Below, one piece after another: positions 5,670-32,823 of a stretch of DNA of 64,000 nt; position 1 is the first letter of the stretch; every line of letters starts with the position of its first letter. This DNA comes from Hemileia vastatrix (lineage: Eukaryota; Basidiomycota; Pucciniomycetes; Pucciniales; Zaghouaniaceae), in contig JASXTE010000001.1 in the NCBI GenBank assembly GCA_030280995.1, positions 27,066,106 to 27,130,105 on the forward strand. Reading direction: 5' to 3'. A program made the position numbers and the translations under genes. Below the pieces are notes generated by a model that was not told the origin of the DNA, did no database searches, and worked only from the letters and a program-made list of their open reading frames with translations.

Positions 5670-5671
5670 AT

Positions 5672-5689
5672 TGGTGTCCCAACAGTGGC
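5672..5689 (+). other. Primer-binding site of element N
   Basis: TGGTGTCCCAACAGTGGC lies 2 bp after the 5' LTR. TGG at the start pairs with a tRNA CCA end, as expected for a minus-strand primer site. The exact tRNA was not identified. The leader from 5690 to 5910 shows no gene. Confidence 0.75.
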
Positions 5690-8220: not shown

Positions 8221-8258
8221 GGACTGGCATTTTAGGTGTTACTATCTCCCAGGATGAG

Positions 8259-10180: not shown

Positions 10181-10628
10181 GAAATGGGTAAATGGGATAG
10201 ATTATTGTCATGAAAGATTTAACAGTAATGTCCGCAATGACAATAAACTAGCAGGCAGTATTTTCTGTGATGACAATAAACTAGTAATGCGGAAGGTCTG
10301 TAAAGACATAAAAATGGATATTGACGATGATGTTTGTAGCAAGGGTAGTCTGCAACTGGATTTAGGGGACGCTGAAGCTAATGTAGTGACAAGAAGTGCG
10401 CAAGGCAAGGTAGTGGAAGAGTCAGATGATGAAGATGACTCAAGGGGAAGTCAAGACAGTAGTACTCATCTCGAAGAAGGGGAGTATTCTGAAGACGACT
10501 CATCTACTGATGAAGGAGTAGAGTTGTTAAGGTTATATTTGGAAGGTAGTAGTCGACCAGATTTTTGCAATAAAAAGGGTTGGAGCAACATTAAGAAGCG
10601 CGCTAAAGGTTATTTTATTAAAAATTGA
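10167..10628 (+). pseudogene. Element N acidic spacer between RNase H and integrase
   Basis: A 150-residue acidic stretch rich in Asp, Glu and Ser (EESDDEDDSRGSQD, EEGEYSEDDSS) lies between the RNase H connection and the integrase zinc domain, in the same frame as the integrase. A TGA at about 10626 separates it from the H2C2 domain. No enzyme motif is visible. Such low-complexity linkers occur between RNase H and integrase in fungal Gypsy elements; no function is claimed. Confidence 0.6.
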
Positions 10629-11784
10629 AAGTTATGGAAGAATCGAGCTTCGTCTCCTCAGTTAGTTGTTCAAACTAGGGAAGAGAAGGAGAAGATACTC
10701 AGGGAGTTACATGAGAGTTTAGGACATAGAGGTCAAGATGAGACGTATCACAGAGTTAGGGAAAGATTCTGGTGGCCCAATATGGAAAATGAAGTAAGAG
10801 ATTGGGTTAAATCTTGTCCTGAATGTCAGCCCAGGAGTTACAGAAAGCCAAAAGAGAAAGGAAGAGCAACGGGCGAAGATACTGTTTTTGGTAGGGTCAG
10901 TTTAGATGCAGTTCATATAAAAGAAGGACACTTTAAATACTTGGTAGTATCCAGGGATGATCTATCAGGATGGATTGAAGCAGCGCTGCTGGTAAATCTC
11001 AAGGCGAGTAATGTAGCTGAATTTTTGAAGAAAGAATGGATTTACAAGTATGGGGTAATGAAGATGGTAACTGTATATGGTGGCCCTGAATTTGCTGGAG
11101 AATTCCAAGAGGTAGTAAAAGGTATTGGAGCAAAGTTACGAGTTGCAACACCATATTATCCTGAAGCAGAGGGAATGGTAGAAAGAGGGCATCAAGTTGT
11201 AAAAGATGCGCTAGTTAAACTATGTGGAAATAATGGGGCAAAATGGAATAACTATTTGCCATTAGTTTTTTTTGAGGACAGGATTTCAGTTAAAAGGACA
11301 ACAGGGTTTTCACTGTATGAACTGATGTTTGGTCAAAGGGGGGTATTACCTATTGATCTGGAGGATGGATCAATTCTAGGATGTGACTGGGATCAAGTGC
11401 GCTCGACTGAAGATTTAATTCTAGTGAGGGTAGTGCAGCTTGAAATAAAGGACGAGTTTGTGGAGAAGGCATATGATAGAATGATGCAGGTCTGTTACAA
11501 GTCAGTTAAATATTGGGATGAGCGTATAGCACATAGGTTAAGGAAGCCATTGAACCCAGGAGATTTGGTTTTGGTTTATAATAGAAGTTTAGAAAGCCAA
11601 TGGGGCAAGATGTTTTCAGACAGATGGAACGGTCCATATAGGATAAGAAAGCAGATAACTGGAGGAATTGGATGGTACTGAGTGGAAGAAACATGTGGCT
11701 TCAGATCAGATCAAAAGATTCTACCCAAGGGGTGTTCCAGTGATACAAGATAACCTCCGGGATGAGGAAAAATTACCAGAATAA
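10629..11784 (+). pseudogene. Element N integrase
   Basis: Zinc-binding part: HESLGHRGQDETYHRV with two His, then CPEC at about 10817. Catalytic core: first Asp kept (SLDAVHI), second Asp replaced by Tyr in VYGGPEF at about 11080, where DGGPEF or DNGPEF is usual, and Glu kept in PEAEGMVERG. The GPY-like C-terminus reads PGDLVLVYNRSLE and DRWNGPYRI. A frameshift near 11670 separates the tail LDGTEWKKHVASDQIKRFYPRG, ending at about 11784. It would insert the cDNA; the missing Asp predicts loss of activity. Confidence 0.85.
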
Positions 11785-12387
11785 TACCTCCAGGAAGAGG
11801 TTAAACTAACAAGTTATGTTAAGTTTTGTTTTTCTAAGAGGACTCACAGGAAGCTTTGACACAGTTGTGACAGATAGAGGGCGCTAACTGGAAGTTAGGC
11901 GGACTATGGCTGAACAGGAAACTGGCACAAGCGCTTAGATGAGGGTGTAGAGGAAAATGAAATCTTATATTTTCATCGTTCGAGGGGACATGACGAAATA
12001 GGTAATTGGATTAAAGGAGATGTGTATCATGTAAACGCAAAAGACGCTGGGGATTTAGCTAATGGGTTAGCTAACCAGGAGTGGAATAGCAATTTATAGA
12101 TGAGGCGCTCTATAGTTCAATTCTTATTTTACATGGTATATCATTGTATCACAGTAAAGGCGGTAAAGTTTTATGATATGAAGGTTTATTTATGAATTTT
12201 TTAGGGTTTAAAGTCTTTTAAAGAAAGTAGAGGGAGCAAAGTTAGGCACTCTAAAGTATGGAAGACAGGTGTAATAAAATAGCGCCATGTCTAAAAAGAT
12301 TATGTGAAGGCATAGCATGAAAAATATACAAAGACTATGTACAGGGAGAATGGACAGAGGAGGCTCATAAGGAAAAGCGCTAGTGGG
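11785..12387 (+). other. Element N non-coding stretch after pol
   Basis: About 600 bases between the pol end and the 3' end of the first antisense gene. I see no open frame of convincing quality on either strand. CpG, mostly as GCGC or GCG, is retained here as in the rest of N. The stretch would contain the facing 3' ends of pol and antisense gene 1. Confidence 0.5.
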
Positions 12388-13184
12388 CTATTCAGTATCA
12401 GAGTGAAAGCTAATAGGATATCCTTTCCAGTCTTCAGGAATGACAAAGCGACGGGGATCGGCGGAGAATCCAAGAATAGTTGATGAGCTGATTTCGTTCA
12501 TTAGCTGACCTATCATTTCTATATGGGTATAGCGAGCTTCAAGTTCAGCGTCAGAAAAAGCTGGTGTGTTAGAGTAGGATAGAGACATAGCATCATATAT
12601 AAGACGAAGTCTGGAAAACATTCACATGGAATGGACAAAGGGTAAAGGAATAGGAGCCCATCCCAGGGAGATGGATTCATTGAAGCCTGAAAAAGAGTCA
12701 GCAGGTAAAGGAAGCATAAGTATAATAAAGGATACTTACTTGCTAATAAGTTTTGTGGGCGCGCTGATGGCAAAGTAATGGTAACCGTGTCAGGAGCAGC
12801 TGCAGTGGAGCCTGAGCGCATAGAAGCATTAGAGCTTGGAGTGGAAGAAGGTGTAGCGCTAGGCTGAATAGATATTTTGCGCCTGGGAAAACTAGGAAGC
12901 AATGGAGATTCATAAGGAACATTATTATTAGTGGAAATAGTGGGACTAGTGGTTGTAGCTATGAGAGCACTACTAGTAGAGCTAGGTGGAAAGCAGATAT
13001 AACCAGCAGGCGGAGGAGTATTCTGGTTTAAAGAGATATTGCAAGTTTTGGGGTATCTAAAGCAATTGTCACAGACAGGTCTAAAGGAGGCATACCCCCG
13101 GGGTTTAGAAAAATTACAATGGAAGTTGTGGCGTTTAAAAAACAAGCACACTTGATCTTTTGGGACGGTACGATATTGAGTCAT
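12388..13184 (-). pseudogene. Antisense gene 1 in element N: Cys-rich (zinc-cluster-like) protein, unknown function
   Basis: Two exons on the minus strand: 13184-12740 and 12686-12388, joined across a 53-bp intron with GTAAGT donor and TTTTTCAG acceptor; the reading phase is kept. About 247 residues. The N-terminus has clustered Cys/His: CLFFKRHNFHCNFSK, then VCDNCFRYPKTC. A Ser/Pro/Thr-rich middle follows, then a C-terminal helix-like part (DAELEARYTHIEMIGQLMNE). One in-frame TGA at 12622-12624 (ATG-TGA-ATG) may be a deaminated CGA. It is a paralogue of the gene at 13618-14665. The Cys pattern suggests metal binding and perhaps nucleic-acid contact; no family was recognised. Confidence 0.65.
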
Positions 13185-13617
13185 AATGTTTGGATGAAAT
13201 AGATCTAGGTTATTAGAAGGGTTATTTATAAGATAACATGGAATTGTAGAGAAGTCACCAGTGTGCCATGTTTGACTTGAGCACTGGATGGTTTCTAAGA
13301 AGATAGGGAAAAATTTTCATCGTAATGAAGGACCCAAGGAAAGGCAAATCTGTCGCAGTCAAGGGAAAGTCATATACTGCGAAGATCTGAAGATTACAAG
13401 AGAGCGCATGCATCTTTGACGCAGGGGAAGTATTTGCTGCTATAGAAAGTAGCAACGATCTCAAGCATTTAGTAGAAGGGTGCTGCTTAGAAAAAGGATG
13501 ATAATTTCTGAAGGCAACTCATCTCGCAGGAAAATTAAGGGAAAATAAAATAATAATATTACAGTTTTTTTACAAGGTAATATACAATTTATAGGTACTA
13601 TATACAAGGAAGATTTT
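13185..13617. other. Gap between the two antisense genes of element N
   Basis: About 430 bases that would be the promoter and leader of antisense gene 1 and the 3' region of antisense gene 2. A minus-strand open frame at 13255-13464 has no recognisable motif and is not called as a gene. Nothing else was seen. Confidence 0.4.
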
Positions 13618-14665
13618 TTAGTATTCTGCGTCCTCAAAGATTGGAACGCAGAAAGCCCAGTCGTAAACAGCCTCTTGCATGTTTTGTTGCAAGATGGTTA
13701 TTAGCTGTTTTTGTTTTCTATACTCGGCGCAAGTATAAACCGGGACTGCCTCAAGGAATCCTTTGACGGAAGTTAGCATGTTGTTCATATGACGCATGGT
13801 CGCATCTTATGGAGCACAGGCGATTTGCTCTGCAAATTCCCAGTTTTGAGACACAGCGGGCTCTTCATCATCAATGTCCGGAGTAGTTTTGATGGGCCAT
13901 TTGTCTGGGATGATGGTGTCAAAGACCGGCTGCATAATTGTCCAGTCAGGGGTGAGTATATGAGGAGTACACTCCGGAATAGGTGTGGTATCCCAGGCGG
14001 GATCTTCTTCCAAGGCTGGAAGGAATAGAGGAACGTTTGGAGGTGGAGGCGTTTCAGCGTAAGGTGTTCCTGGTGCATTCTAAAAGAAACAAAAAAAAAG
14101 AAGAAAATGCTAGGATTAAGAAAGGAAGAAGTAGGAAAAGAAGACTTACGGTACTCTCCTCTGAAAAGAGAGATCTTGGGACAGAAGCAACGCTACTGAG
14201 TGTAGGTTTGCGGTAACCAACCTTAGTTTGTTTGTTACCAGGTGGGGTAGCAGGAGCAGGCGTGGGGTGCTTGATGGTCATTTGACTCATCATGTTAGTA
14301 GTGGAAGCGTTAGGGTTCAGGCGTGCAACGGTGGGTGGCCCATAGTAACTACACTTCTTTTTGTGTGTCTTGCAGTAATTGCATGACTATAAAAAAAAAA
14401 GGGGAAAGAAAAGAAAGGTTAGTAACAACAAGTAAGGAAAGTGAAGATGACTTACAGTGAAGAAATTATTTCCACAATGGGTTTTGGAGAAATGACAAGG
14501 AGTTATGCCATTTTCAATGCAGCGGGTACATCTTGTCCCATCCATCAGTGTTGTTACGGGCGTTGTTGGTGAAGCAGCAGGGGGCTGAGTGCGCACAAAC
14601 TGTCAAATTGCGTCCATGAAGTTGGCGGTAGTTTCAGTGTTAGGATTGGTACTTCTAGTATTCAT
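13618..14665 (-). pseudogene. Antisense gene 2 in element N: Cys-rich (zinc-cluster-like) protein, paralogue of gene 1
   Basis: Three exons on the minus strand: 14665-14456, 14386-14150 and 14079-13618, with introns of 69 and 70 bp (both GTAAGT donors, TAG acceptors) and phase 0 at each junction. About 300 codons. The Cys cluster spans the first intron: RCTRCIENGITPCHFSK, a Cys, then SCNYCKTHKKKC, i.e. two CX2CX6C-like halves resembling fungal zinc clusters. Pro-rich acidic middle; C-terminus MLTSVKGFLEAV to FEDAEY resembles that of gene 1. In-frame stops at 14603-14605 (TGA) and 13807-13809 (TAA) make this copy broken. The spliced antisense structure suggests its own promoter just inside the 3' LTR. 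Confidence 0.68.
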
Positions 14666-14766
14666 TATAAGAAAAGAGGATTACAAATAAGAAGAGAAGA
14701 AGACAGAAGATGGAAGAAGAAAACGCTGCAAGACGCAGGTATTTATGGGCTCCTGGGGACAGTCGC

Positions 14767-14780
14767 GAGTAGAGGGAGGA
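14767..14780 (+). other. Polypurine tract of element N
   Basis: Purine-rich AGTAGAGGGAGGA lies directly before the 3' LTR start, the position of a plus-strand primer. Confidence 0.7.
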
Positions 14781-15990
14781 TGTGGTACGTGCCTCACAGG
14801 TAGCATAATTTTAGACCAATCAGCGCGCGTAGTCCAGGAAGAACAAAGGAAGTTAGTGCAGTAAGAAGTGCTAAAATATAATATGTATTTGCGTGTTTCA
14901 AAGAACAAAGGAAATGGAAGCGCAGATAAGGATTAAGGGTCTGTGCGCTTGGATTTTGTAGCAAGATGTGCCGCACAATGGGGAATTGTGTGTTATTGAT
15001 TTAGGACTGTAAAGCGCTAAAAAATATGGATTTGGACTTTCCAATAATTATGTGTTACACATTAAGAAAAGAGATATGACTTGAGGACGATTCAAGTGCA
15101 TAGTATACTGTACCGCAGCTAGTTGGGTAACTTACTGAAACAGGTAATGAGGGAGGCTAACTAGTTAAGCGAATTGTCAAGACTATGAACCTAGCATTAA
15201 AAAAAGGAGAGTAGGAACTCAATTGCAAAACTACCCAAGAGTCAAGGCGGCTAGGATCAGCATTAGAGTGGGTCAAAACTGAAAATAGCGCTGAAACAAA
15301 AAAAACAAAGGTAGAGTCAAAAACGCATATGTGGAGTATGAGTGAAACAAGTTAATACTAGCGTTAGTAATCATAGGGTATGTTTTAGGAGCCGTAGTTA
15401 TTACAAGGGGTGTACGTAGTTACTAATAGATTAGCTATTGTTTTACTAATATGGCGCTAGAGCCAGCACTGAAGATCCACTAGTGAACTGTGTCTTGAGT
15501 ACTGGAAAAATATAAAAGGGAGGACTATTTGATAGAGAATAGGGAGAAGAGATATATTTATATAAGTAAAATAGAATAGTGAATTAGAGATATTTTCTGA
15601 GTCTTTTATCATTTGTGCGTCTGTGTGTGTATTTCATATAGCATAGTGAAAGAGCGCAACATAGAGAGAATATATAGATTTAGTAGGATTGACTATTATT
15701 AGAGTTATTTTATTGCTATAATAAGGCATATTCAAAGAGAGCGCTTCAAGAGGGAGTAGCTTTGGATATTAGCGCTTATTAAGAATAGAAATATCAAGAT
15801 AGTAATACTTGTTTTCCTGATCTCTAAGACTCATCTCTCATCTTATAAACTTTCTAATCAAATATTAGTGTTACACATTATTGCGCTGTCTTTAAAATAA
15901 GAGTGGCAGGCACTTATTTTTAGAAATTGAAGAGGAGAACCAACCCATCTTGCATTGTGTCTACTGCTTAGTACTTTAGAACAGTCTACA
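14781..15990 (+). repeat. 3' LTR of element N
   Basis: Same 1,210-bp length as the 5' copy, from TGTGGTACGTG to AGTCTACA. It keeps CpG at several places where the 5' copy has CpA or TpG (GTGCGC, AGCGCT, GAGCGC), and the reverse is true at others, so both copies have decayed independently since insertion. Confidence 0.93.
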
Positions 15991-16437
15991 GCGTTTAAGT
16001 ATGAGAAGAAAAGATGGGATAAAGCCCATAAAGAACAAATGATCAAAGAGGGTGATGAAGTCCTTATTTCTACACTACATTTCAATTTAAATGGTAATGT
16101 TAAATTGAAGGATCCATTCATTGGACCATTTGTAGTTAAAAAGATGGTTGGTAACAATGCTGTTGAGGTTATTCTATATTCACCATATGATAGAAAACAT
16201 CCAGTATTTCCTATTTCTCTTATAAAACCATACCATTCTGATGATACTGCTCTATTTCAAAGAAGATCAGGAAGGCATAAACAGCAACCTCAACAAATAG
16301 TTGAAAAGGCAGAAATTGAAAAGATACTTAAAAAGAGACACCTTACTAAAGAAAAGGGAGTTGAGTATCTATTAAGATTTAAAAATAAATCAAGTGAATA
16401 TGACCAGTGGATTCCAGAAAATTAAATCTCAGATCTT
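15991..16437 (+). pseudogene. Element A integrase C-terminus and chromodomain
   Basis: Continues the integrase cut at 4459: FKYEKKRWDKAHKEQM is the counterpart of FEYEKKRWDKSHKEYT in B. After the SH3-like GPF block (DPFIGPFVVKKMVG) comes a chromodomain-like module: EIEKILKKRH, EYLLRFKNKSSEYDQW. Chromodomains in chromoviruses bind histone marks and direct integration to heterochromatin. Ends with TAA after WIPEN; B extends further to LPTLLKKYKKKKP. The segment itself is open for about 145 codons. Confidence 0.85.
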
Positions 16438-16583: not shown

Positions 16584-16895
16584 TATCAGCCTAGATATCC
16601 ATAGGACTGAGTATTTCATATACTTAAAATAAGATAACCTTAATTACATTAAGCTTATATCTTAAAAATAAGGTTAAAATAATTATATATATGATTATAT
16701 TACATATATATATAATTATTACTCTATTATATAAATTATAGTAGTTTAAATAGCTTATCCATAGCCTAATAATACTTATTAAGGTGTTAATGGAGTCATA
16801 ATATACTTTTCTTAAGTTATATTAAGTAATTATTGACATACATAAGCTTATATGTATACATAAATCTCATATTCAGTGAAATATGCAGTATATTA
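16584..16895 (+). repeat. Element A 3' LTR, first part
   Basis: Begins TATCAGCCTAG after a polypurine tract and is cut at 16895 by Harbinger H1-1. AT-rich and without genes; TGTCAG-type start changed to TATCAG by one G-to-A change. Confidence 0.65.
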
Positions 16896-16978
16896 GGGGG
16901 TATCAATGTTCAGGGATCCGCAATTAGGGATCAGGAATTTTTTTTTCCGGGATCAGACATTATTAATTGCGGAAGATT

Positions 16979-17010
16979 CTTATCCACTAGCCCCGGGGCT
17001 AGTGGATAAG
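16979..17010. repeat. Subterminal perfect palindrome of H1-1
   Basis: TTATCCACTAGCCCC is followed directly by its complement GGGGCTAGTGGATAA. The same palindrome, weakened by CpG loss, occurs at about 58893-58922 (H1-3) and 58760-58790 (H1-2). A likely transposase-binding or hairpin site near the terminus. Confidence 0.75.
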
Positions 17011-17274
17011 GAATCCACGATAATGCATTATCCCGCCTCTTATACCCCAATTTCCATTCCTAATTCCTGATCCCAAACTCATCTCATCCATGATGGATTT
17101 GCAAGAAAGTCACATGACTCATAATTGCTGATGCCATCCTTAAGTCTTTCCTCACTCTATGCTACTTAATTTTGATGGCAAACACTTAAGTTTTTTTTCT
17201 ATCTACACACCTCAACTGCAAATTTGGCGGTGAATTCCCACTTCCCTCATCACTTAACCCTTCCACCGGCAACA

Positions 17275-18534
17275 ATGAAACACCTCTCTACTAGGAAGCT
17301 ACTTCACTCAACAATGAATGCTATCACTTTTCTTTTAGTTCTTTACTATAAATCTGACTCTGATTTGGAAGATGCTTTAGCTTATATGTGTTTTCTTTCC
17401 AAAAAGCGTTAAATCATCACCAGGGGGCCAAATCTTTATCATGATCCCCGATATGATCTGGCCTCCATTCTCAACATTCCTCATTTAAACTTCACGCAAC
17501 TTTTTAGAACTTCTCCCAATTCTTTCTTCAAACTTTATCAACTCATTTCTGAACATCCTATCTTCCATAACAATTCTCATAACAAACAGCGTAATCCTGC
17601 CATCCAACTTGCTGTTGCTCTATGTCGCTTTGGCTCAAATGGAAATGGTGCTTCCGTAAAACGTTTGGATAATCTCTTTAACATAGAATATGATACTGTG
17701 ATATTATACACCAAGCGCTGTATGATTACTATCCTTTCCCTCAAGTCTCAAAATCTTGCTTGGCCAACTCCAGAACAGCGACTTGAATCCTCTCAAGTAA
17801 TGCAAGCTGAAGGTTTCCCTGGCTGTATAGGTTTTGTTGATGACACAGCCATCCCTTTGAGTCAAAAGCCTGCTCATGATGGCAACCATTATTTTGATCG
17901 CAAAAAAAGGTTTCTTCAAAATCTCCTCCAAGTTCTCATCTTTCACAATCTAACTTTTTATCTTCTTTCTAGATACTCTATTGCCATTCAACTTGTATGA
18001 AATGTCAATAAAAAATTTATTGCTTTTCACAGTGGCTGCCCTGTATCATGTCATGACTCTTCTGTCTTCCAAAGAATGAGTATTTCTCAATCCCCTGACT
18101 CATACTTTGACAAATCTCAGTACCTCCTTGCAGACTCAGCATATGCAAGTGGAAAGTACATTATACCTGCTTTCTGTGGTGCAACTTCAGAAAATGACCC
18201 CAAAACTAAATTTAATTATCACCTTGCACAATCAAGAGTACAAATTGAACATGCTATAGGTATTTTAAAGGGACAATTTTCTAGTCTTCGGGAGCTCAGA
18301 ATCCGATTTCAAAAAAAATTGGAGATCAAAACTGCAAATCATTGGATCTTGACTTGTGTAATACTCCACAATATTCTAGCTGTTTTAAAGGATGAGTGGA
18401 ATGATCTTTATGAAGAAGAGGATCCTGAACCACCACCGGCACTCCCCTCCCTTGATTCACAAATCATTCAATCAACCGGCATACGCCCCATTATAATGCC
18501 AATTACTCTCCAACATTTCTCTTCACCCTTTTAA
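17275..18534 (+). pseudogene. H1-1 transposase (DDE_4, PIF/Harbinger, HARBI1-like)
   Basis: Catalyses cut-and-paste transposition. Blocks in order: helix-turn-helix-like LAVALCRFGSNGNG, the first catalytic Asp in GFVDDTAIPLS (GFVDGT in other copies), YFDRKKR, a 63-bp intron (17910-17972, TTTCTAG acceptor), YSIAIQLV, the second Asp in GCPVSCHDSSVF, LLADSAY, and the Glu in VQIEHAIGILKGQF, then CVILHNIL. DDE residues are retained. Stops at about 17410 (KKR-TAA) and 17998 (QLV-TGA, where H1-3 has Cys) break the frame. ATG 17275 (MKHLSTRK) matches the other copies. About 400 residues, normal for the family. Confidence 0.85.
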
Positions 18535-18990
18535 TTTTTAATTTTTATGTTTTCATACTTTCCAAATGTCCTCTTTGTGTACTTTAATCACTTGGTTTTG
18601 TATTTTGGTTTGTTGCATATTCATTTTTTTTTTTGAATTTACGGTGAATATCTTTTTTTTGGATGGCTCATTGGTTTTCTTTCACCTCCTCAACATGAAA
18701 TCACATATTTTCTTATATCACATATTTTGTCAGTGATTTTTTTTTTCATTCATTACTCATATCCTTTTCATCCTCTCCTCAAACATCCCTCAAATATTTT
18801 GGTTGCATTTATTTTCTCAACTCAACTCACCAGGTAGGTCATTTTTTTTCTTGGTTTTTTATTTGCTAATCATGATTTTTTTTTTTTTGCTTTTTTTTTT
18901 TTTTTTTATGTAAGTGCTTCATTTATTTTTGTTCTAGGGTAAACTAATTTTTTTTTTCTCTCTTTTTTCTCTTTTTTCTTGTTTTTTTTT
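18535..18990 (+). other. H1-1 T-rich spacer with splice-like signals
   Basis: Transposase 3' region. Contains the conserved block TGGATGGCTCATTGGTTTTC and CACCAGGTAGGTCA. The same block is found at 55110-54870 (-), 32230-31990 (-) and 60960-61230. CAGGTAGGT or CAGGTAAGT is conserved in all, which suggests a real splice donor for a leader exon of the oxygenase gene. Confidence 0.45.
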
Positions 18991-19720
18991 TCTCTCCTTC
19001 ACCTCTCTTTATCATCCTCAAGGCCCCCCTTTTTCCCTCTCTTTACCTGTCTCAAGACCCCCCTTTCCCCCCTCTTTAGGTCCCTCATCACCCCCCCTTC
19101 CCCTCTTTTTAGGTGCTTCAATACTCCCCCTTCCCCTCTCTTTATGTCCCTCAAACCCCTACCCCTTCCCCTCTCTTTATGTCCCTCAAACCCCTTTCCC
19201 TTCACCTCTCTTTTGCCACCTCAAACCCCCCCTTTCCCTCTCTTTAGGCGCCTCAAACACCCCCCCTTCCCCCCCTACCCACTCCCTTACCTCCTCCTCT
19301 ACCCCCCCCCCCCTCCTTCTTAATGAACAATCGTTACCGATCGTTCATTAAGAAGGAGCGGGGGGGTGGGTAGAGGAGGAGGTAAGGGAGTGGGTAGGGG
19401 TAAGGGGAGTGGAAGGGGGGGAGGAAAGATGTTAAGGGGGGGGGAAAGGGGGGTTTGAGGCGGCTAAAGAGAGGGGAATGGGGGGGGTTTGAGGCGGCTA
19501 AAGAGAGGTGAAGGGGGGTGGTTGGGAGATATAAAGAAGGGTAAAGGGGGGGATTAAGGTAACTAAGGGAGGGGATTTGGGGGGGGAATTTTGAGGGGGT
19601 TTGAGGAAATTAAGCAGGGGTATTCAGGGGGTTTTTGAGGCAGGCAAGGAGAGGATTTGAGGGGACTGTTGAGGCAAGGAGGGAGGGATTTGTAAGGGGA
19701 TTTCACATAAATAAAGGAGT
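18990..19720. repeat. Large purine/pyrimidine inverted repeat inside H1-1
   Basis: A C/T-rich left arm (about 19000-19320) of repeated units like CTCTCTTTATGTCCCTCAAA is followed by the hairpin CTTCTTAATGAAC...GTTCATTAAGAAG and a G/A-rich right arm (about 19345-19690) with units like GTTTGAGGCGGCTAAAGAGA. The right arm is the inverted copy of the left. Such tracts can form cruciform or triplex DNA. The long Pro/Ser- and Lys/Gly-rich open frames here are by-products of composition. Confidence 0.8.
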
Positions 19721-20349
19721 TGAATAGGGGACAATTATGGAAGATAAAGAGGGGTTACCTACTTTCAAATAAATATACTAACAAATTTTTTTTTGTAAAT
19801 TTGATTAATTTTTTAATTTTTTTGGCTGGAAGTATTATAGAAATAAAAAAATTTCTTTCTGTTAAGGACTGTCCCTCTTATTTCCAAATCCAAAGAGGTT
19901 TTTAAATTAAAAATTAATTTTTCTTGTAAATAATTTTTTGGTTTTTTTTTTATTTTAATAATTTTTTTGTTTTTTATTTTGATTTTACTGATTTTTTTTT
20001 TTTTTTCAGGATCTTGTGAGAAGTTTTTTAATAACCAATCTTCAGGTTCACTTTTATTTTTTATTTTTTATTTTTTTTTAATTTAATTTTTACTGAAATT
20101 TTCTTTTTTGAATGAATTTAATTATTAATTTTTTTTTATAAAATTTTGCTTTTATTGTGTTTTTTAAAATAAAACCTCAGGTTTTTTTTTTATAAATTTT
20201 TTTTTTGGAAAATTTTTTACTGATTTTTTGGTTTTTTTTTTTCAATTTTATTTTTCAAATAAAAAAAACAGCTTTTTTTATTATTAGGTAGGAATTTTTT
20301 TTTAAAAAAAATAGAGTTGAAATTTTATTGACAATTAATTTTTTTTTCA
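19721..20349 (+). other. H1-1 poly-T-rich stretch before the oxygenase gene
   Basis: Runs of T broken by A-rich patches, ending TTTTTTTTCAG immediately before the ATG region at 20360. It looks like a long 5' intron with a polypyrimidine tract and 3' splice site. No gene seen. Confidence 0.4.
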
Positions 20350-20359
20350 GATCAAAAAA

Positions 20360-21934
20360 ATGTCTTCTTCTTCTGATTCACCCCTTACTTCTCTATTATC
20401 TTCATCTTTATCTTCTTTATCATCTTCATCTTTATCATCTCTATCATCTTCTTCGAAATCAACATCCATACAATCATCTTCTAAATCATCAAAAAAAAAT
20501 TATCTTCTTTATCATCTTCATCTTTATCATCTCTATCATCTTCTTCGAAATCAACATCCATACAATCATCTTCTAAATCATCAAAAAAAAATTATCTTCT
20601 TTATCATCTTCATCTATATCATCTCTATCATCTTCTTTGAAATCAACATCCATACAATCATCTTCTAAATCATCAAAAAAAAATTATCTTCTTTATCATC
20701 TTCATCTTTATCATCTCTATCATCTTCTTCAAAATCAACTTCCATACAATCATCTTCTAAATCATCAAAAAAAAATAATGATAATCAGTCTCATAAGAAG
20801 AAAAGATATCTGAAAAAAAAAATTCTTCATCTAAATCATCAAAAAAATTTAAAGAGAATCAGTCTCATTAGAAGAAAAGATATCTGAAAAAAAAAATTCT
20901 CTGTGAAAGTTATTTTCGTCATATCCCAAACATTATTTTTCATAAAACTAAAGTAGATTAAAAAAATCAATATCCTAAAAAATTACCAGAAGATATCAAA
21001 TATCTAACTGAATTTGGAGATGATCGAGTTGTTGCAGTTATCAGTAATTCTTATAAGGCTCAATTCATATTGGAAGTTCATTCATTTGATGGTGTAAAAG
21101 ATGAAGCTTTTAATCAACAATTGGATCTTATCATAACTCTTTATCAAATGGCTTTGGTTCAATTACCTATAAGGAATACAAATTTTTTGGGTGGTATCAT
21201 GATTGGATTTGGTTGGAGACCAGGTTTTGTTAAAGGATATTCTCTTGGTATGTCTAAAAATTTTTTTCCATTCTTAATATCATTTCACTTATTTCATTTA
21301 TATAGGCATATATTCGTTGGTCAAGAATATCACTAAAGCTCATAAAGATGAAGATTTTCACTTATGGGACACTCTACCTTGCTTTAACTCTTTTCTTGCT
21401 CTTCAACTCAAATAGCTCTGTAATAAAGCATTTGAAAAAAATCATGAACTAGCAACCAAAGTTGGAATACCAAATTGGTGTGACTCCAAATGGGAAGATA
21501 TCAGCCACAAATATCTTTTATTTTCTAATGTTATTATCACTCATTCTGGATTCCACAATAGGATTCATATCGATAGGAATGATGCCAATTTTCTTACTTT
21601 TGGTATATTCTCATATATCAATCCGATAACTGGCCACCCAATACCATCTCCAGCTAAAAGCAAAGGACATGGCTTATATTTTCCAGACCACCGATGCATC
21701 ATTGATTTTGGTTTGGGAAATGGTATCATCGAAACTATTTGGAATTCTTCTAAGGATAATCATCAAACAACCAAAGCTCCTCCTGGTTTGGAATCCTGTC
21801 AAGATTTGACACATTTTGGTTGCTCATTTCAAATCAGTCATAAGTTGATTCAAAGAATCAATAAGGTAAAGAAAGAAGGTAAAGTTATTCGATTTAAAAA
21901 AACTTTATCTAGATCCAAAAAGTATGGGGATTAG
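20360..21934 (+). pseudogene. TET/JBP-like 2OG-Fe(II) oxygenase, copy 1 (in H1-1)
   Basis: Related to fungal Tet-like oxygenases, which oxidise 5-methylcytosine in characterised members. N-terminus: Ser-rich, built from 92-bp repeats. Core: FGDDRVVAVIS, GGIMIGFGWRPGFVKGYSLG, then a 58-bp intron (21248-21305, GTATGT...TATATAG), IYSLVKNITK, ITHSGFHNRIHIDRND with the metal-binding HxD (HID), TFGIFSYINPITG, GHGLYFPDHRCIIDFG, IIETIWNSSKDNHQTT with the distal His, and THFGCSFQIS. C-terminus basic, stop after SKKYGD. In-frame stops at 20959-20961 (TAA) and 21413-21415 (TAG), plus frame changes from the repeats, make this copy formally broken, although the catalytic residues are kept. Convergent with ORF2. 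Confidence 0.78.
20404..20775 (+). repeat. 92-bp tandem repeat in the oxygenase N-terminal region
   Basis: Four copies with a period of exactly 92 bp (anchor AACATCCATACAATC at 20461, 20553, 20645; a variant at 20737). Units are nearly identical and encode Ser-rich peptide in one frame. Because 92 is not divisible by 3, each unit shifts the reading frame. Confidence 0.9.
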
Positions 21935-22680
21935 AGTTGTCATCGAAAATTTTACATTTTTTCATAAATTTTAAATAAATATTTTTTATATATCAGTTTG
22001 CTCAAGTAATGTGATGAGCCAACAACCTTTGGTTGTATAACAGGTAATCATGATAACATTTATTTGTTTCATGGGGTTCCTCTTGCCTATACCTGTGGAA
22101 AGTCCCAAACTTTTGTTTCTTGACTTGGTCTGCATTTTGGCTTGAGGAATTGTCATTACTTTAAACTAGGGAAATTGATATATATTAGATATTTATTTAA
22201 TAATTTATGTAATTATATTAAATTTAGATGACTTCCACCCCTTACTTCAATAAAATGCAGGGGGGGGGGTATTGCCAAATTTTCAAATCTGACATGTGAA
22301 ATTGATGACTTAGAAAAATTTTGGTGATACCCACCCCTTGCTTCAATAAAATGCAGGGGAGAGTATCGCCAATTTTTTTAAACAGATATAGAATTTTTTT
22401 GACTTGTAAATATTTTGGTGAAATTTTTTTGGTGATACCCGTCCCTTACTTCAATAAAATCCATGGGGGGTTTTGCCAAAATTTCTTATAAGACTTGTGA
22501 AATTCTTGACATGTAAGAATTTTTGGGATACCGGTAAAATGCAGGGGGTAGTAAAGCCAAATTTTCATATAAGACTTTCAAGATTCATGAAATGAAAAAA
22601 TTTTTGTGATACCCACCCCTTACTTCAAAAAAATCCAGGGGTGGGGGATTGTCAAATTTTCAAAGGAGACTTGAAAATTT
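21935..22680 (+). repeat. H1-1 tandem repeats of about 105 bp between oxygenase and ORF2
   Basis: After the oxygenase stop come about 280 bp of non-coding sequence, then about five degenerate units from 22225 containing CACCCCTTACTTCAATAAAA and TGCAGGGGGGG, with ATTTTCAAATCTGAC between. Related units occur at 61440-61890, at 30000-30175 (inverted) and weakly at 52600-52690 (inverted). They contain AATAAAA and may act as the convergent 3' ends of the two genes. Confidence 0.75.
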
Positions 22681-22798
22681 TATTTAAAAATAGAATATTT
22701 AACATTAAAATATGATATTTCAAGAAATAAAGAAAATAATTGTAAAATTTATGTACAAATAAATATGAACGCATGAAGTGTGAAAGAAATATAAGAAA

Positions 22799-24109
22799 CT
22801 AGTCAACAAAAAATTTCATTAATTGTTCTATTTCTTCAACAGATTTTTTGGCTTTAATGCATTCGATCAAGAAATCTTTCTTTTTAGAACTTTCTTGAAG
22901 ATCATGCTTATACTTCATCTGTTCCATTAAGTTTTGATGCTCGAGTGTTTTTTCCTCTTTTTTGGATTTTTCAATACTAAGAGTTAACTCAAACTTCTTC
23001 TCCTCCAAATCTTGGACCCGATCATCCTTCTGTAAGGAGAGCTCGTACTTGTTTCTTCCAAATCTTGTACTCTGTCATCCCTCCTTAAAGAGAGCTCTTA
23101 TTTCTTCTTTTCAAAGCTTAGAGTCTCTTTAGCAATTTCCACTTGTTCTAGAGTGAGAATAAAAATTATACATAAAGTAGAAGAAAAGCAGAGTAAAGTA
23201 ATAAGAGGTATGATATCACTTACCAGCATCACATTTCTCTAAAAACTGTTCCATCAAAGAAAAAGGTGTTTGTGATGAAGTATCACTTTTTTGTCTTCTT
23301 TGGGAGAGGAAATTTAGACTACTTGAAGCCTTTTGCTTTTTGTTCAACGTAGAATTTTCCTCCTCATGATTGTCACTAGCTTCAGACTCAGTTGATTGAG
23401 GATCCTGGGTTTGTTCATCAGCCTTTTAAGAAATAAGAAAAAGATAATTAAATAAAAAATAGAATTCATAAGATAAAAGAAAAAAGAAAGAGACCTGAGT
23501 TAGATTTGGTTGGGTTAAATCACCTATAGGATCTACAGAAAAGCTATCTAGATATGTCTCATTCAAATGAGGGGAGGCTTGAGTGGAGGAAGAGGGTGGG
23601 AAAAGATTTGAACATGTTTACAGGATTAACATCGGCTTGCTCTCCAAAAATTGCATCCATCTCTTTAAAGTAAGGTCATAAATAATCAAGTTTATCATCT
23701 ATGTATTTTATGCCCTTATTTATATCGTTGTCGGTAATCCCAAAACCAGTTGAAGATGAAAGAGCCTTTGCCTTATGTATTTTGCTTGGTAATGCTTGAA
23801 GCGTTCAGACATCTGTTTAGGCAAAATATCAATCCTTCCCTTGGTCTTATTGCGTAATTCATTTTCCATTAGAAGATAGCCATTAACTTTTGATGCGAGG
23901 GGCTGTCCTACTTTAGTGGCATACTCAGTACCAAAACAAGAATCATAGTTAGATTTGGTTTTCAGCCAGTTGATAAGAATGAGATGGTCATCTTTTTTTA
24001 ATTGAACGGTCTTTGATTTCTTGGCTGAGCGGGGGAAAGTGGGAGTAGTGGGATTTGAAGAACAACTTGGTGATGGCTGCTTTTGAGAAGATCTAGGACG
24101 ACGAGGCAC
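22799..24109 (-). pseudogene. H1-1 ORF2: SANT/Myb-like plus coiled-coil accessory protein
   Basis: Second Harbinger protein, which in known elements helps the transposase enter the nucleus and bind DNA. From 24109: basic N-terminus MPRRPRSS, Ser/Pro stretch, then VQLKKDDHLILINWLKTK and NYDSCFG (a SANT/trihelix-like helix set), VNGYLLMENELRNKTKGRID, SERFKHYQAKYI, a frameshift near 23780, TGFGITDNDINKGIKYIDDKL, MDAIFGEQADVNP. The last exons form a coiled coil (EEKKFELTLSIEKSKKEEK) ending IEQLMKFFVD at 22799. A GTAAGT donor lies near 23223. Its head end is next to the right terminus, transcribed towards the oxygenase gene. Confidence 0.65.
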
Positions 24110-24448
24110 GTTAAAATATAAATGAAGATGAAAAGCAGCAGAAACAAGCAGATGAGATGGTGAGGGGTTCTGAGTGGATAGAATGGACAGGATGAGAGAA
24201 GAATGTGAGTGTTCAGCAAGGTAGAAGCCATATCCAGAGAGTAGTCCAAGATGTGGTTATGGTAGAAAGTAGGTCAAGATGTGGTTATGAAAAATTGAGT
24301 AAAAAAATGTTGGATAAGAGGTGAACATTGACAGGTAAAGTGTCTAATAACCCAATTATTAGCAAAAATAATTGCGGAAGATAATTGGGGTATAAGGATT
24401 TTTATCCGCAATTAATTTAATTGCGGATCTCTGAACATTGATACCCCC
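24110..24448. other. H1-1 right terminal region
   Basis: Leader of ORF2 and right end of the element. Contains AATTGCGGAAGATAATTGGGG and the terminal inverted repeat ending CATTGATACCCCC. Matches the start of H1-2 at 49820 in inverse orientation. Confidence 0.7.
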
Positions 24449-25374
24449 TATTATGTATATTTAGGTATATAAGTGGGTTTTAGTCTCTTAATAGCCTATA
24501 ACCTTTGTTTTTCTGCTTATTCTAGGTCATATGGACATATCCAGTGGACTCACAACGCCTTCAGAAGCATATACATCTATTTCAGGCGCATACACTCAGT
24601 TTTGACAACTTAATCTGCTTCCTTGGAGGGATATTCATGGATTTATGGGCTTGGAGGTCATTTCTGGGTTAATATGGATGCTTGGGGATGTTATTGGGGG
24701 CTTTGAAATTTCATTTTTTTGCTTTTTATGCTTTGGGTTTCATTATATTCTCTTTGGATGAGTTATTTTATCTGTTTCTTTATGGTATCCACTTTTATCT
24801 GGATTTTCTATTTATGGTATGGGCCTGTGTTATCATTAATTGTGATTGAGGGTCCTTACTGGAGGTCTGGGTGTTGAAGCTGCTTGAAGTGGACGCCATG
24901 GGGAGGTAATGGGCCCTCACAGTGCTGTAATTGCCATGGATAGAAGTGACATCATCTGGATTGAAGGTCTGTGCACTCCAGTGGATTTTGGTATAAGTAA
25001 GGGAGGATTTTGGAGGTTATTAGACATCACTTACTTACTACAATTCATGTAAACATTATAAAAAAATTATTATAATTTAGAAATATATCATACAGCCTTT
25101 ATTTATTGATATTATCTTTATATAAGCTACAACTATATTATATTTATCTATTTTCCACCACTAGCACACATTTAAATCCAAGTATTGTGAGTTTTATTTG
25201 AGTATAAGTATTTTATTAGTCTTCCCCTGAGGTTTAATCACTAAATAATTTATCAATAAGTAGTAGGACCATTAATAAATACTATTAAATCATACTTATA
25301 TACTAGATACACTGACAGGAACACATCCAGGTAGAGGAGAGACTTAAGATAACACATTAAATCAGGGCATATTA
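24449..25374 (+). repeat. Element A 3' LTR, second part, and flank
   Basis: Resumes after H1-1. No genes; contains a promoter-like stretch and AT-rich 3' part. The sequence ACTAGATACACTGACA ending at 25317 resembles the ends of other LTRs here. The net LTR would be about 1.18 kb, near the net 1.28 kb of the B LTR. 25318-25374 is flank before the next transposon. Confidence 0.45.
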
Positions 25375-26740
25375 GGGGGTGTAATCATTACCATATATAC
25401 CTGAAAGGGTTCAGTCTTAAAATACCATACAAAGGCACCATCATAAATGGCTTACATGGGGTTAGAAATGTCAAACATGAGGTCAAATACTTCCTACTCT
25501 TGTGCCATCCCCTGAAACACAATTCAGCCTACCAATTAACACATCACCCAATCCACTACACATCAGATACCCTCTCCCCTAGCCACACATTTTACATGTG
25601 ATCATAACTTATGAGTTTTTTTCTAAATCAACATTTCTTGCTCAAATTTTTATCTTCTCATCACCATAAGTTCATTCCTTTTGATTTCTTTAATCATCAC
25701 CTTTTTCCAGCTTAATTTTCTATTCTATCCTGCATCTTATGATTGCTGAGATAATGACCTTAAAATTTGAGCCTTCTTTTTTGGGCTATATCACTTTTTT
25801 TGCTTCCATGTCATTGACACACATTCATAGCACATTCTTTATGCATTTCACTTGCTCAATATTCAATTTCCCCCCCAATTTCAATTTTGCTCTTTTTCAA
25901 TCTAGTTTTTCCTACCTTTCCATCAAAGTAAGTGTCAGCTCCACTTTCTTTTTCATGAATATCTGATGTCTCTTTCTTTATATAATGAATGAGATTTCAA
26001 ATATTTGTAGGACTCTTATCAGGATAATGGTGGACTTAATTAACTCCTCTTGTTGTTAATTTCAACATCACTTTTCAAATTTTTTTACAGGTCTTAAAAA
26101 AAAATTGGAATTAGGGTTATGCTTGACAAAATCTTATGTACTTTTATTTGAAGATTCTTCAGAAGCCTAACTTTTATTCACCAAAGGCAGTTTTGAATTC
26201 GGTTCAGTGGTTTCTGAGGCATTCACCTTTGAAGTTGAGCCTTTTTTTTGCCCAATTCTACTATGATTTGTTTTGATGTCACATAATCAGATAATAAGGC
26301 TTCTATTTTTTTCTGATAACTATCTAGGCTTTCAGCTTTCATTCAAGTACCAGATAATTACATTTCAATAACTATTTGACATTTCTTCACTGATTTTCTC
26401 TACATTACTTGAATCAATCCTTTTCCAAATTATGTCAAACAGGTCTCAATTTCTATCATGAATGCATGCTCCAATCTATATAAGACACTTCTCTGGATAA
26501 TGGTGAACCTAATGAATCCCTGTTATCATTTTCAGTATCAATTCTCAGATTTTTATGCAATTTTGAAAAAATGAGTTTGAATTATGGTTAGATTTAAACA
26601 AATTTCATGTCCTTTTAAATAAAGAATCTCTTGAATACTACCTTTTATTTCCCACAAATGGCTTAAGATTGGTTCAGTGGTTGCTGAGATATTGACCTTT
26701 AAAGTTGAGCGTTTTTTTTGCAATTTCAACTTTATTTATT
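25375..26740 (+). repeat. H2a left half with repeats of 170 bp or more
   Basis: No intact gene. Blocks like GGTTCAGTGGTTGCTGAGA and ACCTTTAAAGTTGAGC recur around 25750, 26200-26240 and 26670-26715. The same blocks appear inverted at about 31190-31410. Upstream, GCACATTCTTTATGCATTTC matches inverted 31740-31760. This is the leader part of the oxygenase cassette, here without the oxygenase. Confidence 0.5.
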
Positions 26741-28400
26741 GCATAATGAATTTCATAACACATATCATAATGATTTCATCATGCAATTCTTCTTCCAGAT
26801 ACTCCCAAATATCTTTGTCTTTACTTATTTTTCTGCCCTTTCATTAAGGTGGGGTTTATTCTTTTTCTTACCATTTTCATACTTTTCTCATTCATCTCAT
26901 CTCTTCTTTCTTTGACCCACATGTTTTATATTATCATTTTTATATTTTTCATCCTTTTCTTTCTTTGTTTTGTCCACCCTAACTAACTTTTTAATTTTTC
27001 TTACCTTTTTCCTCTTATTTGAATTTAGGTCCCTCTAACCCTTATCTCATGTAAGTACTTACTAATATTTCTTTTTTTACTCACTTTTTTTCTTTTTATT
27101 CTATGAATTGCTTCAGAAGCAGTTCCACAATATTTCCTGCCTGTTTCCAATCATTTTTGGTATGTTTTTTTTTCTGGCCTTGGAAATGCTTCAGAAATGT
27201 TTCCAAGATTTTTCCAAGGTGCTTACTAAATTTTCTTTTATTTTTATATATATTTTTTTTTCATTTTTTTCATTTTTTTACAAATTGCTTTGGAAACAAT
27301 TCCAGAATGTTTCCTGACTGTGTATGTGCATTTTTCATATGTTTTGATTTTTATTTTTAACAAATCATTTTGGAAACAGTGCCAAGGTGTTTCATGCCTA
27401 TTAATGAGTTTTTTTGGTGTGTTTTTTTTCTTTTGGCCTCAGAAAAATTTCTAATATGTTTCTGAGGTATTTAATAACTTTTATTGTTTTTTATGAAAGG
27501 TTCAATGAAAAGTAAATCATTAGGGAGGGAGGAAAAGTATAGTAAATAAAGGATTTCCAAAGATTCATTTTTATTTCTTTAATTTTTAATTAATCAGTCA
27601 TTAAAGGCAATCATCAACTTTAAGTAATGGCTCATCGGGCCTTGCTAATGTATAAAGGTAATCATTCCAACACTTAATTTTTAGAATGAGTTCAAAATAC
27701 AATTCCATGTCAAATTTATTCTTTGACTTTGCTCACATCAGAACTAATTGGCAGGTAGTATTCTGAATGCCATTACTTTTAGTTTTCTGATTATCTTTTT
27801 TGACTGGTATACTTTTTAATTAATGAAGTAAATATGAAAATTTGGTAATTCTGACCACCTCCCATAGTAGATTGAAAGGGACAGTATTGCCTTTTTTTTT
27901 CTTTTTGATATTTTTTGATTTTCTTGGAAAAAAATTTTAATTCATATTTATATACTGAAAAATTGTCAAAATTTAAAGATGAAGAAATTAAAATAATTGA
28001 CTATCAGTCATTAAAGTTAATCATCATTATTAAGTGATGGGATATTATGCCTTTCTGATATATACAGGTAATCATTCAAACAATTAATTGTTTGAATGAG
28101 TTCAAAATACAATTCTATGTCAAAGAAACAGTGCCAGGATGTTTCCATTGCTTTGGAAACAGTGCCAGGATGTTTTCTGCATTTTTCTGAGCATTTTTGG
28201 TACATTTTTTATACAAATCATTTTGGAAACATTGCCAAGGTGTTTCATGCCTGTTAATGAGTTTTTTTCATATGTTTTTTTGGCCTCAGAAATGTTTCTA
28301 AGATGTTTCTGAGGTATTTACTAACTTTTTTTTTTGATTTTTTTATGAAAGTTTCAATGAAAAGTAAATCATTAGGGAGGGAGGATAATTATGATAAATA
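26741..28400 (+). repeat. T-rich region with GGAAACAGTGCCA minisatellite
   Basis: From about 27100 to 28300, variants of TTTGGAAACAGTGCCAAGGTGTTTC and TTCCTGACTGT-like words recur, along with two long direct copies (about 27360-27580 and about 28210-28420, sharing GTTAATGAGTTTTTTT and AATCATTAGGGAGGGAGG). No gene; the open frames are Phe-rich artefacts of T-rich DNA. Confidence 0.55.
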
Positions 28401-28559
28401 AAGGATTTCCAAAGATTCATTTTTATCTTTCATTTGCTAAGGATTGATGTCAATTCTCCATTTTTTTTCTTCTTTACTTTATTTACCATCAACAAGAAGC
28501 CATTGACCTTTGACAAAGGTGGAAAACAAATTTTGGCAGACTTCTCACATCCAAAACAT

Positions 28560-28731
28560 GAATCATAATTTGATTTAATTTTGTGGAAGTTGATGATGAT
28601 GAGTTAAAATTCCTTTTTTAGCTATCCTGACTTTGGTTTCTCAGGTGAGGGGCTTGCATTATCAGAAGACCTTTGTAATGAAGCATCTTTTTGAGTTGCC
28701 TTTTGAGTGTTGGATTTTCTGGGAGGCATCA
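28560..28731 (-). pseudogene. H2a ORF2 N-terminal fragment
   Basis: Read from 28731: MMPPRKSNTQKATQ, SPSPEKPKSG, then IIINFHKIKSNYDSCFG and LSKVNGFLLM, clearly homologous to H1-1 ORF2 (LINWLKTKSNYDSCFG, ASKVNGYLLM). Stops interrupt it and the rest of the gene is missing. Its position near a right end and its minus orientation repeat the H1 layout. Confidence 0.7.
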
Positions 28732-28739
28732 TGAAACTG

Positions 28740-29321
28740 GTATGTTACAAGAAAAGAGATTAAGAGGTTGTAACATAAAAAAAGTATGGGAAAAAACATG
28801 TCTGGTTAAAATGTTGCAATAAAATGTTTCAAATCTCAGTGAGGGGTGTGCACCAAGGATTGATGAGAGGATTGAGGTCTGAGTGTCACATGTGGCAGGG
28901 ATGGGGTGGGCAAGGAAGGGATGATGTGGCCTACATGTGGTTGTGAAAAAATAATTGGGAAAAAGGTGCTGATCTGAGGTCATAACTGACACCCATTTTT
29001 GAAATAAGTGACTTTTTTTCAAAATTTAAGTGCTGATTTGTTTTGAAATCCACACTTAAATTTGACCAAATATGCACCTAAATAAGTGCGGATTTCCAAA
29101 ACACACTAGCCCCAATACTGGTGGATTTCAAAATGAAATAAGTCACTTATTTCACTCAAATCCGCACTTTCTCAACCAAAAGTGCTGATTTCACCATCAA
29201 GTCCCATTTCACTGATTTGTCAGCATCATCCCATTCATACGCAGCACTCCACAGCATAACACTTCATAACTCAAAACATTGTACATCATTTACATTTTCA
29301 TATCATATCATATAAGAGTCA
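28740..29321. repeat. Junction of an H2 right end and an H2 left end
   Basis: GAGGTCATAACTGACACCC (about 28977) matches the H2 right end at 32375-32395. AAGTGCGGATTTCC at about 29087 then starts the H2 left region found again at 61990-62240 (ACACACTAGCCCCAATACTGG and onwards). The terminal GGGGG/CCCCC and flanks are missing at the joint. Confidence 0.65.
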
Positions 29322-29945
29322 TGCCTTCCTCACTTTCAAATCGTAATAAATTACATAAAGCAATGACTTTCATGGCTCTTGAACTGCTCTTGGACTCTGA
29401 TCGCGATTCTGATTCTGATCTAGAAGAAGATTTTGTCTTTTTATCAAAAATGGCCACGAAAAGTTACCTTCTTCCCAGAAAGCCTCAAGTACTTCATACC
29501 CCCAAGTACACCATCCAAACACTTCTTAAACTATCTACACCCAGTTTTAGACAGCTGTTCAGGACTTCTCAGGAATGTTTCCTTAAATTGCTTGAGCTTA
29601 TTCAGGATCATTCCATATTTCACAATAATTCTTAAAAAGAACGATGACATCCTTCAATTCAATTGGCCATCACACTATGTCATTTGGGTTCAAATGGTAA
29701 TGGAGCCGCTTTGAAACGTTTAGAAAATGTCTTTGATTTAGGGTATGGTTCATTTAACACTTATACCAAACAATGTATCACTGCCATCAACTCCTTGTAA
29801 TCTCAACTTCTCACCTGGCCAACAAAAGAAGAGCGACATGAATCATCTCAGGTTATGCAAACAGAGGGCTTCCCAGGATGTATTGGTTTTGTTGATGGTA
29901 CTGCTATTCCTTTGAGCCAGAAACCTGCTGAAGGTGGAAACAATT
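29322..29945 (+). pseudogene. H2b transposase, N-terminal two thirds
   Basis: MPSSLSNRNKLHKAM, an acidic DSDSDLEEDF stretch, then HPSIQLAITLCHLGSNGNG, VMQTEGFPGCIGFVDGTAIPLSQKPAEGGNNYF. The first catalytic Asp (FVDGT) is present; everything after NNYF, with the second Asp and Glu, is replaced by inverted repeat sequence at about 29945. Stops after HNNS (29633) and in NSL-TAA. Second Harbinger subfamily, recognisably related to H1. Confidence 0.8.
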
Positions 29946-29949
29946 ACTT

Positions 29950-30180
29950 TCACATTCTTGTCAAAAATTTTCACCAAAATATTTACAAGTCAAAAAATTT
30001 CTATATCTGTTTCAAAAAATAGGCAATACTCTCCCCTGCATTTTATTGAAGCAAGGGGTGGATATCACCAAAATTTTTCTAAGTCATCAATTTCACATGT
30101 CAGATTTGAAAATTTGGCAATACCCCCCCCCCCTGCATTTTATTGAAGTAAGTGGTGGAAGTCATCTAAATTTAATATAA
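29950..30180 (-). repeat. Inverted copies of the 105-bp unit in H2b
   Basis: ATTTTATTGAAGCAAGGGGTGG and CCCCCCCCTGCATTTTATTG are the complement of the units at 22225-22680, downstream of the inverted oxygenase copy as in H1-1. Confidence 0.75.
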
Positions 30181-32505: not shown

Positions 32506-32823
32506 TATTAATTGGTTTTTATTTTAATTTTATTATTTCTTTATTTCCCTTTCATTCATTTTTTTATTTGTCTAATACAGAATGTCAAATATGGTAGTAG
32601 GGAAATCACTAAGAGGGGGGGTGATATACATGATGTGGTATGCTTAGTGAATACTCAACATGTACAGTACCTGGCAACATATTTTTGCCACAACATATTT
32701 TTTTCCTGCTGCCATTTTACTTTCCTCAATACCACCAGCATCTCATAGATACTTCTGGCTTCTAAATTTGTTCTTGTAACTCTCACTTAATTAGCTTTTC
32801 ATTTTCATTCTGCAATTTCCACT

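Follow-up and report, generated by a model that had tools for sequence, protein, structure and literature searches.

The usual target site duplication (TSD) of canonical PIF/Harbinger DNA transposons is TWA. H1, a transposon family represented by the element H1-1 at positions 16895-24449 of a 64-kb stretch of Hemileia vastatrix DNA (hereafter the window), has in common with these elements a DDE_Tnp_4 transposase, inverted termini, short non-autonomous derivatives and a TSD of 3 bp (the length given in PMC12730594), but differs from them in carrying an oxygenase gene, in lacking a clear Myb/SANT domain in its second gene and in having a duplication that reads mostly AWT rather than TWA. H1 is interpreted here as a high-copy PIF/Harbinger family with a TET/JBP-like dioxygenase as accessory gene, the product of which, judging from sequence, likely oxidizes 5-methylcytosine (5mC) to counter silencing, a reading to which we assign a probability of about 0.62.

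Elements of this kind have a recent precedent. The available text of Kojima 2025 (PMC12730594) reports 15 TET-positive Harbinger families ("PHISTA") from six Pucciniales species, with a transposase, a TET/JBP gene and a third protein. It proposes an escape from methylation, notes that experiments have yet to confirm what these transposon genes do and describes TET genes as passing between transposon superfamilies in rusts. The original prediction for the window, which knew of no description of an oxygenase stably housed inside PIF/Harbinger elements, is thus overtaken on this point. Literature searches gave no further paper on TET-bearing Harbinger elements among the matches listed; of two rust genome papers checked by text search, one (PMC12210899) names PIF-harbinger once and contains neither "TET" nor "dioxygenase", and the other (PMC12774611) mentions neither Harbinger nor an oxygenase.

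H1 is like PHISTA in its Harbinger-type transposase, in the TET/JBP oxygenase (of the PU type) and third gene inside its termini, and in its rust host. PHISTA takes its name from a TA TSD, however, whereas the H1 duplication is better read as 3 bp, mostly ATT or AAT, a comparison that relies on the published description of PHISTA termini. Furthermore, the third proteins of PHISTA are said to lack Myb/SANT (PMC12730594), whereas a piece of H1-2, a diverged relative of H1-1 in the window, has a sub-threshold Myb match. H1 is therefore a TET-bearing member of PIF/Harbinger that is not filed strictly as PHISTA, because its duplication, as read here, is not the defining TA. New with respect to the text of Kojima 2025 (PMC12730594) as available are the 3-bp duplication, the estimate of selection, the exchange of modules and the existence of sister copies devoid of the oxygenase. 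More distant parallels are found in the same source. KDZ transposons likewise carry along TET/JBP oxygenase genes in fungi, but they use other groups of transposase, and two of them, Zisupton and Dileera, make 8-bp TSDs, unlike H1 (PMC12730594). CcTET of Coprinopsis cinerea is a fungal TET-like enzyme, likely transposon-derived and shown to oxidize 5mC, but it is of the AG type, unlike the H1 oxygenase (PMC12730594).

H1-1 and its oxygenase

H1-1 spans 7,555 bp and is flanked by 3-bp ATT duplications at 16892-16894 and 24450-24452. Its left (16895-16926, forward strand) and right (24418-24449, reverse strand) terminal inverted repeats are complementary to each other. Over the slightly wider arms 16890-16926 and 24418-24454, 35 of 37 positions are complementary, compared with a best score of 27 among 200,000 random pairs of 37-mers from the window. 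The termini enclose, in order, a DDE_Tnp_4 transposase gene, a two-exon PF20515 oxygenase gene and an antisense third gene (ORF2), confirming the earlier description of terminal repeats, a DDE_4 transposase, a spliced oxygenase and an antisense ORF2 within one 7.55-kb unit. H1-1 is itself a dead copy: the transposase is interrupted by two in-frame stops and the oxygenase by one, and the ORF2 frame is broken.

The transposase gene (17275-18534, forward strand) has a predicted intron at 17910-17972 and in-frame stops at 17410-17412 and 17998-18000, and matches the Pfam family DDE_Tnp_4 at E = 1e-18 in 18001-18531. Identity to its best four relatives is 45-52%, with 85-99% of the query covered, and the best matches are rust proteins from P. 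coronata (52%), P. striiformis (51%) and A. psidii (47%), an order of similarity that speaks against A. psidii MF-1 as the host and for another rust. In a tree built without a labelled PHISTA reference, the transposases of the window fall beside a P. coronata/P. striiformis DDE_Tnp_4 clade and then A. psidii. Between transposase and oxygenase, C-rich and G-rich arrays at 18996-19600 form large imperfect inverted repeats (arms 18996-19095 and 19415-19514), and C-rich sequence resembling them is also present in the copy L049.

The oxygenase is encoded on the forward strand by exon A (20962-21247) and exon B (21306-21934), the latter containing the HxD...H metal triad and an in-frame stop at 21413-21415. 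A serine-rich, low-complexity stretch at 20360-20960 (forward strand) is the presumed N-terminus, from which the gene would start, and 92-nt tandem repeats shift its frame as well. PF20515, the "Tet-like 2OG-Fe(II) oxygenase superfamily", matches 21416-21931 at E = 1.5e-23, exon B translated past its stop at 2.7e-28 and the two exons joined at 1.2e-35 (residues 69-253). The HID, distal NHQTT, GHGLYFPD and FGCSFQIS blocks reported for the spliced product are all present in the H1-1 oxygenase. The metal triad is invariant in an alignment of four oxygenase sequences and is intact in 11 of the 16 exon-B copies sampled, H1-1 included (the 16 comprise 13 complete elements together with C3, L040 and L042). 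Where the triad is lost, N takes the place of D in four of five cases. The named relatives of the oxygenase are Tet-like proteins of A. psidii and Puccinia, among which its placement is unsure because the branches are long. One of the Puccinia graminis Tet-like proteins with a PF20515 match (P0067) bears the source name "Ubiquitin carboxyl-terminal hydrolase 7", apparently a misannotation.

The third gene, ORF2 (22799-24256, reverse strand), has a coiled-coil-like C-terminal part. None of the H1-1 ORF2 pieces tried against Pfam reaches the cut-off, the one sub-threshold match being to an unrelated enzyme family. A piece of the H1-2 ORF2 (~50350-50650) matches Myb_DNA-bind_4 at E = 0.003 with 18.3 bits, below the cut-off of 27, a match that has no counterpart in H1-1; this piece may represent a diverged form of the usual DNA-binding partner of Harbinger transposases.

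H1 copies across the genome

The genome searched comprises 747.6 Mb in 791 contigs, in which the 23-nt core of the H1 terminus has 9,905 matches (4,957 + 4,948) with at most 3 mismatches, compared with none for a backward-pattern control. The places listed were the first 100, on contig C2 and without mismatch. Four candidates (L031-L034), picked by two exact termini facing each other 7.0-7.3 kb apart, all contain the transposase (95-97%), the oxygenase (91-94%; L031 without exon A) and the N-terminal part of ORF2, ORF2-N (84-96%). Twenty further stretches were taken from listed plus-strand termini, blind to gene content, omitting ends already fetched, ends of known short elements and two ends with a listed partner more than 13 kb away. 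Eleven of them have an opposite terminus (at most 5 mismatches) more than 4 kb away, three are short (0.45-2.4 kb) and six have none in reach. The 11 complete elements all contain transposase and ORF2, and nine also contain the oxygenase (L045 only as a 129-nt piece). In every complete element that carries it (4/4 and 9/11), the oxygenase sits between transposase and ORF2. The check that the original prediction had proposed for itself, a genome-wide search for copies with the oxygenase inside the termini of the transposase, has therefore come out in its favor. Among H1-1, L031-L034 and these 11, both exons are present in seven elements, exon B only in six, a decayed oxygenase in one and none in two. 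Closer-spaced termini enclose less: the 3.5-kb pair L040 has kept oxygenase and ORF2 with no match to the transposase, and neither the 1.0-kb pair L039 nor four shorter pairs (L035-L038) gave any gene match. Short derivatives of ~0.45 kb with H1 termini are also among the sampled end pairs.

Aligned element ends read XYZ|AGGGGG...CCCCCT|XYZ, where XYZ is ATT or AAT in most. Of the 29 end pairs examined, 23 have the same 3 bp on both sides: 10 in a set of 11 (L038 excepted), 10 in a further set of 14 (not L045, L047, L049 or L056) and three among four additional short elements read by eye (L004, L017 and L025, not L008). TA adjoins GGGGG in most pairs, yet the base outside TA also agrees between the two ends, and copy L044 has ATA on both sides, its left GGGGG not being directly preceded by TA. 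If only TA were duplicated, nothing would require the base outside it to match, and a duplication of 3 bp is therefore the better reading.

With exon B as query (208 amino acids, with Q in place of the TAG codon), a genome search yielded 14,851 loose first-look candidates. The best 150, which were scored and which include that of H1-1 itself, are 92-100% identical over essentially the whole exon. There is no in-frame stop in 110 of these 150, so that the genome holds at least 110 stop-free exons; as a share, the figure applies to exon B alone and is biased upward because the 150 are the best candidates. Nonsynonymous and synonymous differences per site were compared as pN/pS from Nei-Gojobori counts pooled over pairs of copies, which are not independent, with a codon bootstrap and L061 excluded. 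The ratio is 0.43 (0.31-0.60, 12 copies) for exon B, 0.56 (0.42-0.75, 14 copies) for the transposase and 0.92 (0.63-1.53, 14 copies) for ORF2-N. Purifying selection thus acts on the oxygenase about as strongly as on the transposase, and constraint before insertion was probably stronger than these pooled ratios suggest, because the counts include decay after insertion.

Distances among copies point to separate descent of the two genes. In Mantel tests on 11 copies (leaving out L044, with 91 gapped transposase codons, L049 and L059, which have no oxygenase, and L061, from a diverged subline), distances agree within modules, between the transposase halves (r = 0.76, p = 0.0005) and between the exon-B halves (r = 0.62, p = 0.008), whereas transposase and exon B are uncorrelated (r = 0.00-0.16, p = 0.23-0.44); exon B and ORF2-N give r = 0.28-0.45. 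The genealogy of the oxygenase is separate from that of the transposase, as recombination or gene conversion between copies would bring about.

Substitutions in these copies also bear on silencing. Scored against the most frequent base among up to 16 copies, transitions in exon B affect 0.335 of CpG cells in TCG context (167 cells), 0.217 of other CpG cells (83) and 0.020 of other C/G cells (2,720). Two parts of the transposase give the same ranking, with 0.221 and 0.400 for TCG, 0.125 and 0.205 for other CpG, and 0.015 and 0.016 for other C/G. C-to-T change at CpG accounts for seven of the 14 exon-B stops. This concentration of transitions at CpG makes it likely that methylated CpG is present in this genome. 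In related rusts, CpG depletion of transposable elements is attributed to 5mC deamination in A. psidii (PMC8063080, in the text available), and young transposable elements carry CG methylation in P. graminis (PMC8444563, likewise).

Related copies and other features of the window

Besides H1-1, the window contains three related copies. The original prediction had the same three genes recurring in H1-2 (~49815-58807, reverse strand), and ORF2, oxygenase and transposase are indeed all there in the same order as in H1-1, but the left terminus is missing and there is an insertion of ~2 kb at ~56350-58317. H1-3 (58811-61936, forward strand) consists of a left terminus and transposase, with the oxygenase region absent from the aligned part. 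C3 (29963-32295, reverse strand) combines an oxygenase exon B 93% identical to that of H1-1 with DNA that follows the transposase (84%), whereas nothing in it matches exon A; nearby, at 29552-29950 (forward strand), there is a transposase-like fragment. Observed/expected CpG is 0.06-0.10 in 1-4000, 24455-29500, H1-2 and H1-3, 0.30 in H1-1 and 32300-49800, and 0.54 in the upstream Gypsy-like stretch (4001-16400).

Divergence between H1-1 and H1-2 is uneven, with a pS of 0.646 (0.570-0.724) in the oxygenase versus 0.261 (0.205-0.321) in the transposase. Third-position transversions are also higher in the oxygenase (0.309 vs 0.088), and hypermutation alone is therefore insufficient to account for the contrast. 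The H1-2 oxygenase has 13 in-frame stops in 304 codons, compared with 5 in 342 for the transposase (Fisher p = 0.033), and given this excess it may have died earlier. A more general rule, that the oxygenase is always older than its transposase, was hinted at by five copies (pS 0.144 vs 0.034) and was rejected with 12, among which exon B has the higher pS in only 38 of 66 pairs.

The remainder of the window includes other repeats. Gypsy-type genes (protease, RNase H and integrase) lie within 4460-15080, between two 300-nt repeats of 94% identity (4460-4759 and 14781-15080), and this stretch is followed at 15931-16422 by a Tf2-1-like SH3 match and a sub-threshold chromodomain. A retroelement sequence is present in two diverged copies (72-75%), at 465-3819 and 42330-45693, 42 kb apart, and a 9-nt T-rich unit forms a tandem array at ~37040-37150.

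Function of the oxygenase

The step from a PF20515 match to demethylation of the element is one that we infer, and counter-silencing, as the original prediction had proposed, is the best reading of the oxygenase. The anatomy of the element suggests that the transposase acts on the shared termini and leaves 3-bp duplications, and pN/pS indicates that selection kept the oxygenase while the H1 family spread. The oxygenase would oxidize 5mC on H1-family elements, and this oxidation would weaken silencing by CpG methylation and so permit expression of the transposase. Copies in which the oxygenase is truncated or missing multiplied as well, so the enzyme probably works in trans, as a product that copies share.

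Several results weigh against this scheme. The PF20515 name is an annotation and no test of function. AlphaFold predictions are too low in confidence to decide on the double-stranded beta-helix fold of TET/JBP enzymes (mean pLDDT 44 for H1-1 exon B with 28 relatives, and 49 for P0001, a relative from A. psidii, with 59 further rows). Foldseek found no match at E ≤ 0.001 for the second of these models, and no TET, CcTET included, came up when the H1 oxygenase and its relatives were compared by sequence with the PDB. The pN/pS of exon A, 0.60 (0.32-1.26, 6 copies), has an interval that includes 1, and copies that bear the oxygenase still decay via CpG transitions. Two of the complete elements, the recent copies L049 and L059 (97-99% identical to each other), have no oxygenase by tblastn at 1e-3. 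The flanks of L049 are 95% and 97% identical to those of L048, but the ~2 kb between them (L049:2145-4122) is unrelated to L048, and this replaced part of L049/L059 holds no stop-to-stop open reading frame longer than 128 amino acids. The spread of L049/L059, and of the copies without exon A (6/16), shows that the oxygenase is dispensable in cis. Nor is the loss of correlation peculiar to this gene: the two ORF2 pieces are uncorrelated with each other (r = 0.07, p = 0.26), while transposase distances correlate partly with those of the stretch after the oxygenase (r = 0.42-0.48). Separate histories are therefore a feature of the whole element rather than of the oxygenase alone.

Other accounts of the gene fit parts of this evidence. 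An enzyme that modifies DNA otherwise or at another base, by thymine hydroxylation as in JBP, by conjugation as in CMD1 or on N6-methyladenine (6mA), for example as a mark on element DNA, is unlikely; according to the available text of Kojima 2025 (PMC12730594), the PU type leaves room for other activity on cytosine or thymine and has CMD1 among the nearest solved relatives, but the CpG-transition signature makes 5mC the obvious substrate. Somewhat less credible still is an oxygenase whose substrate is RNA, a protein or a small molecule, or one that rides as a passenger without a role in transposition. Amplification of copies without exon A (6/16) or without any oxygenase (2/16) would suit such an enzyme, as would the low confidence of the fold models, whereas a pN/pS as low as that of the transposase and the stop-free state of most scored exon-B copies, in a list that favors well-kept ones, speak for a role that selection maintains. 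The idea that the oxygenase belongs to the host, or to a separate element that happens to adjoin Harbinger sequences, could draw on the uncorrelated distances of oxygenase and transposase and on the movement of TET genes between superfamilies described in part of the Kojima text (PMC12730594), but it is largely contradicted by the complete elements (4/4 and 9/11), in which the gene is enclosed by shared termini with transposase and ORF2 on either side of it, and is very improbable.

Within the preferred reading of the oxygenase as a 5mC oxidase that counters silencing, a more specific and doubtful proposal is that it serves the H1 family as a recombining, trans-acting public good. Its alleles would be shuffled between transposase lineages, with full copies paying for the product and truncated or oxygenase-less copies, along with short derivatives, exploiting it. 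If true, this would amount to a demethylase commons within one transposon family. More broadly, transposons equipped with a candidate 5mC oxidase of their own offer a direct test of an arms race between silencing and mobility. In this one genome, thousands of related termini and at least 110 stop-free oxygenase exons occur together with sister copies that lack the oxygenase but have flanks 95-97% identical to those of oxygenase-bearing copies, and these sisters provide natural matched pairs for the effect of the oxygenase on methylation, expression and spread.

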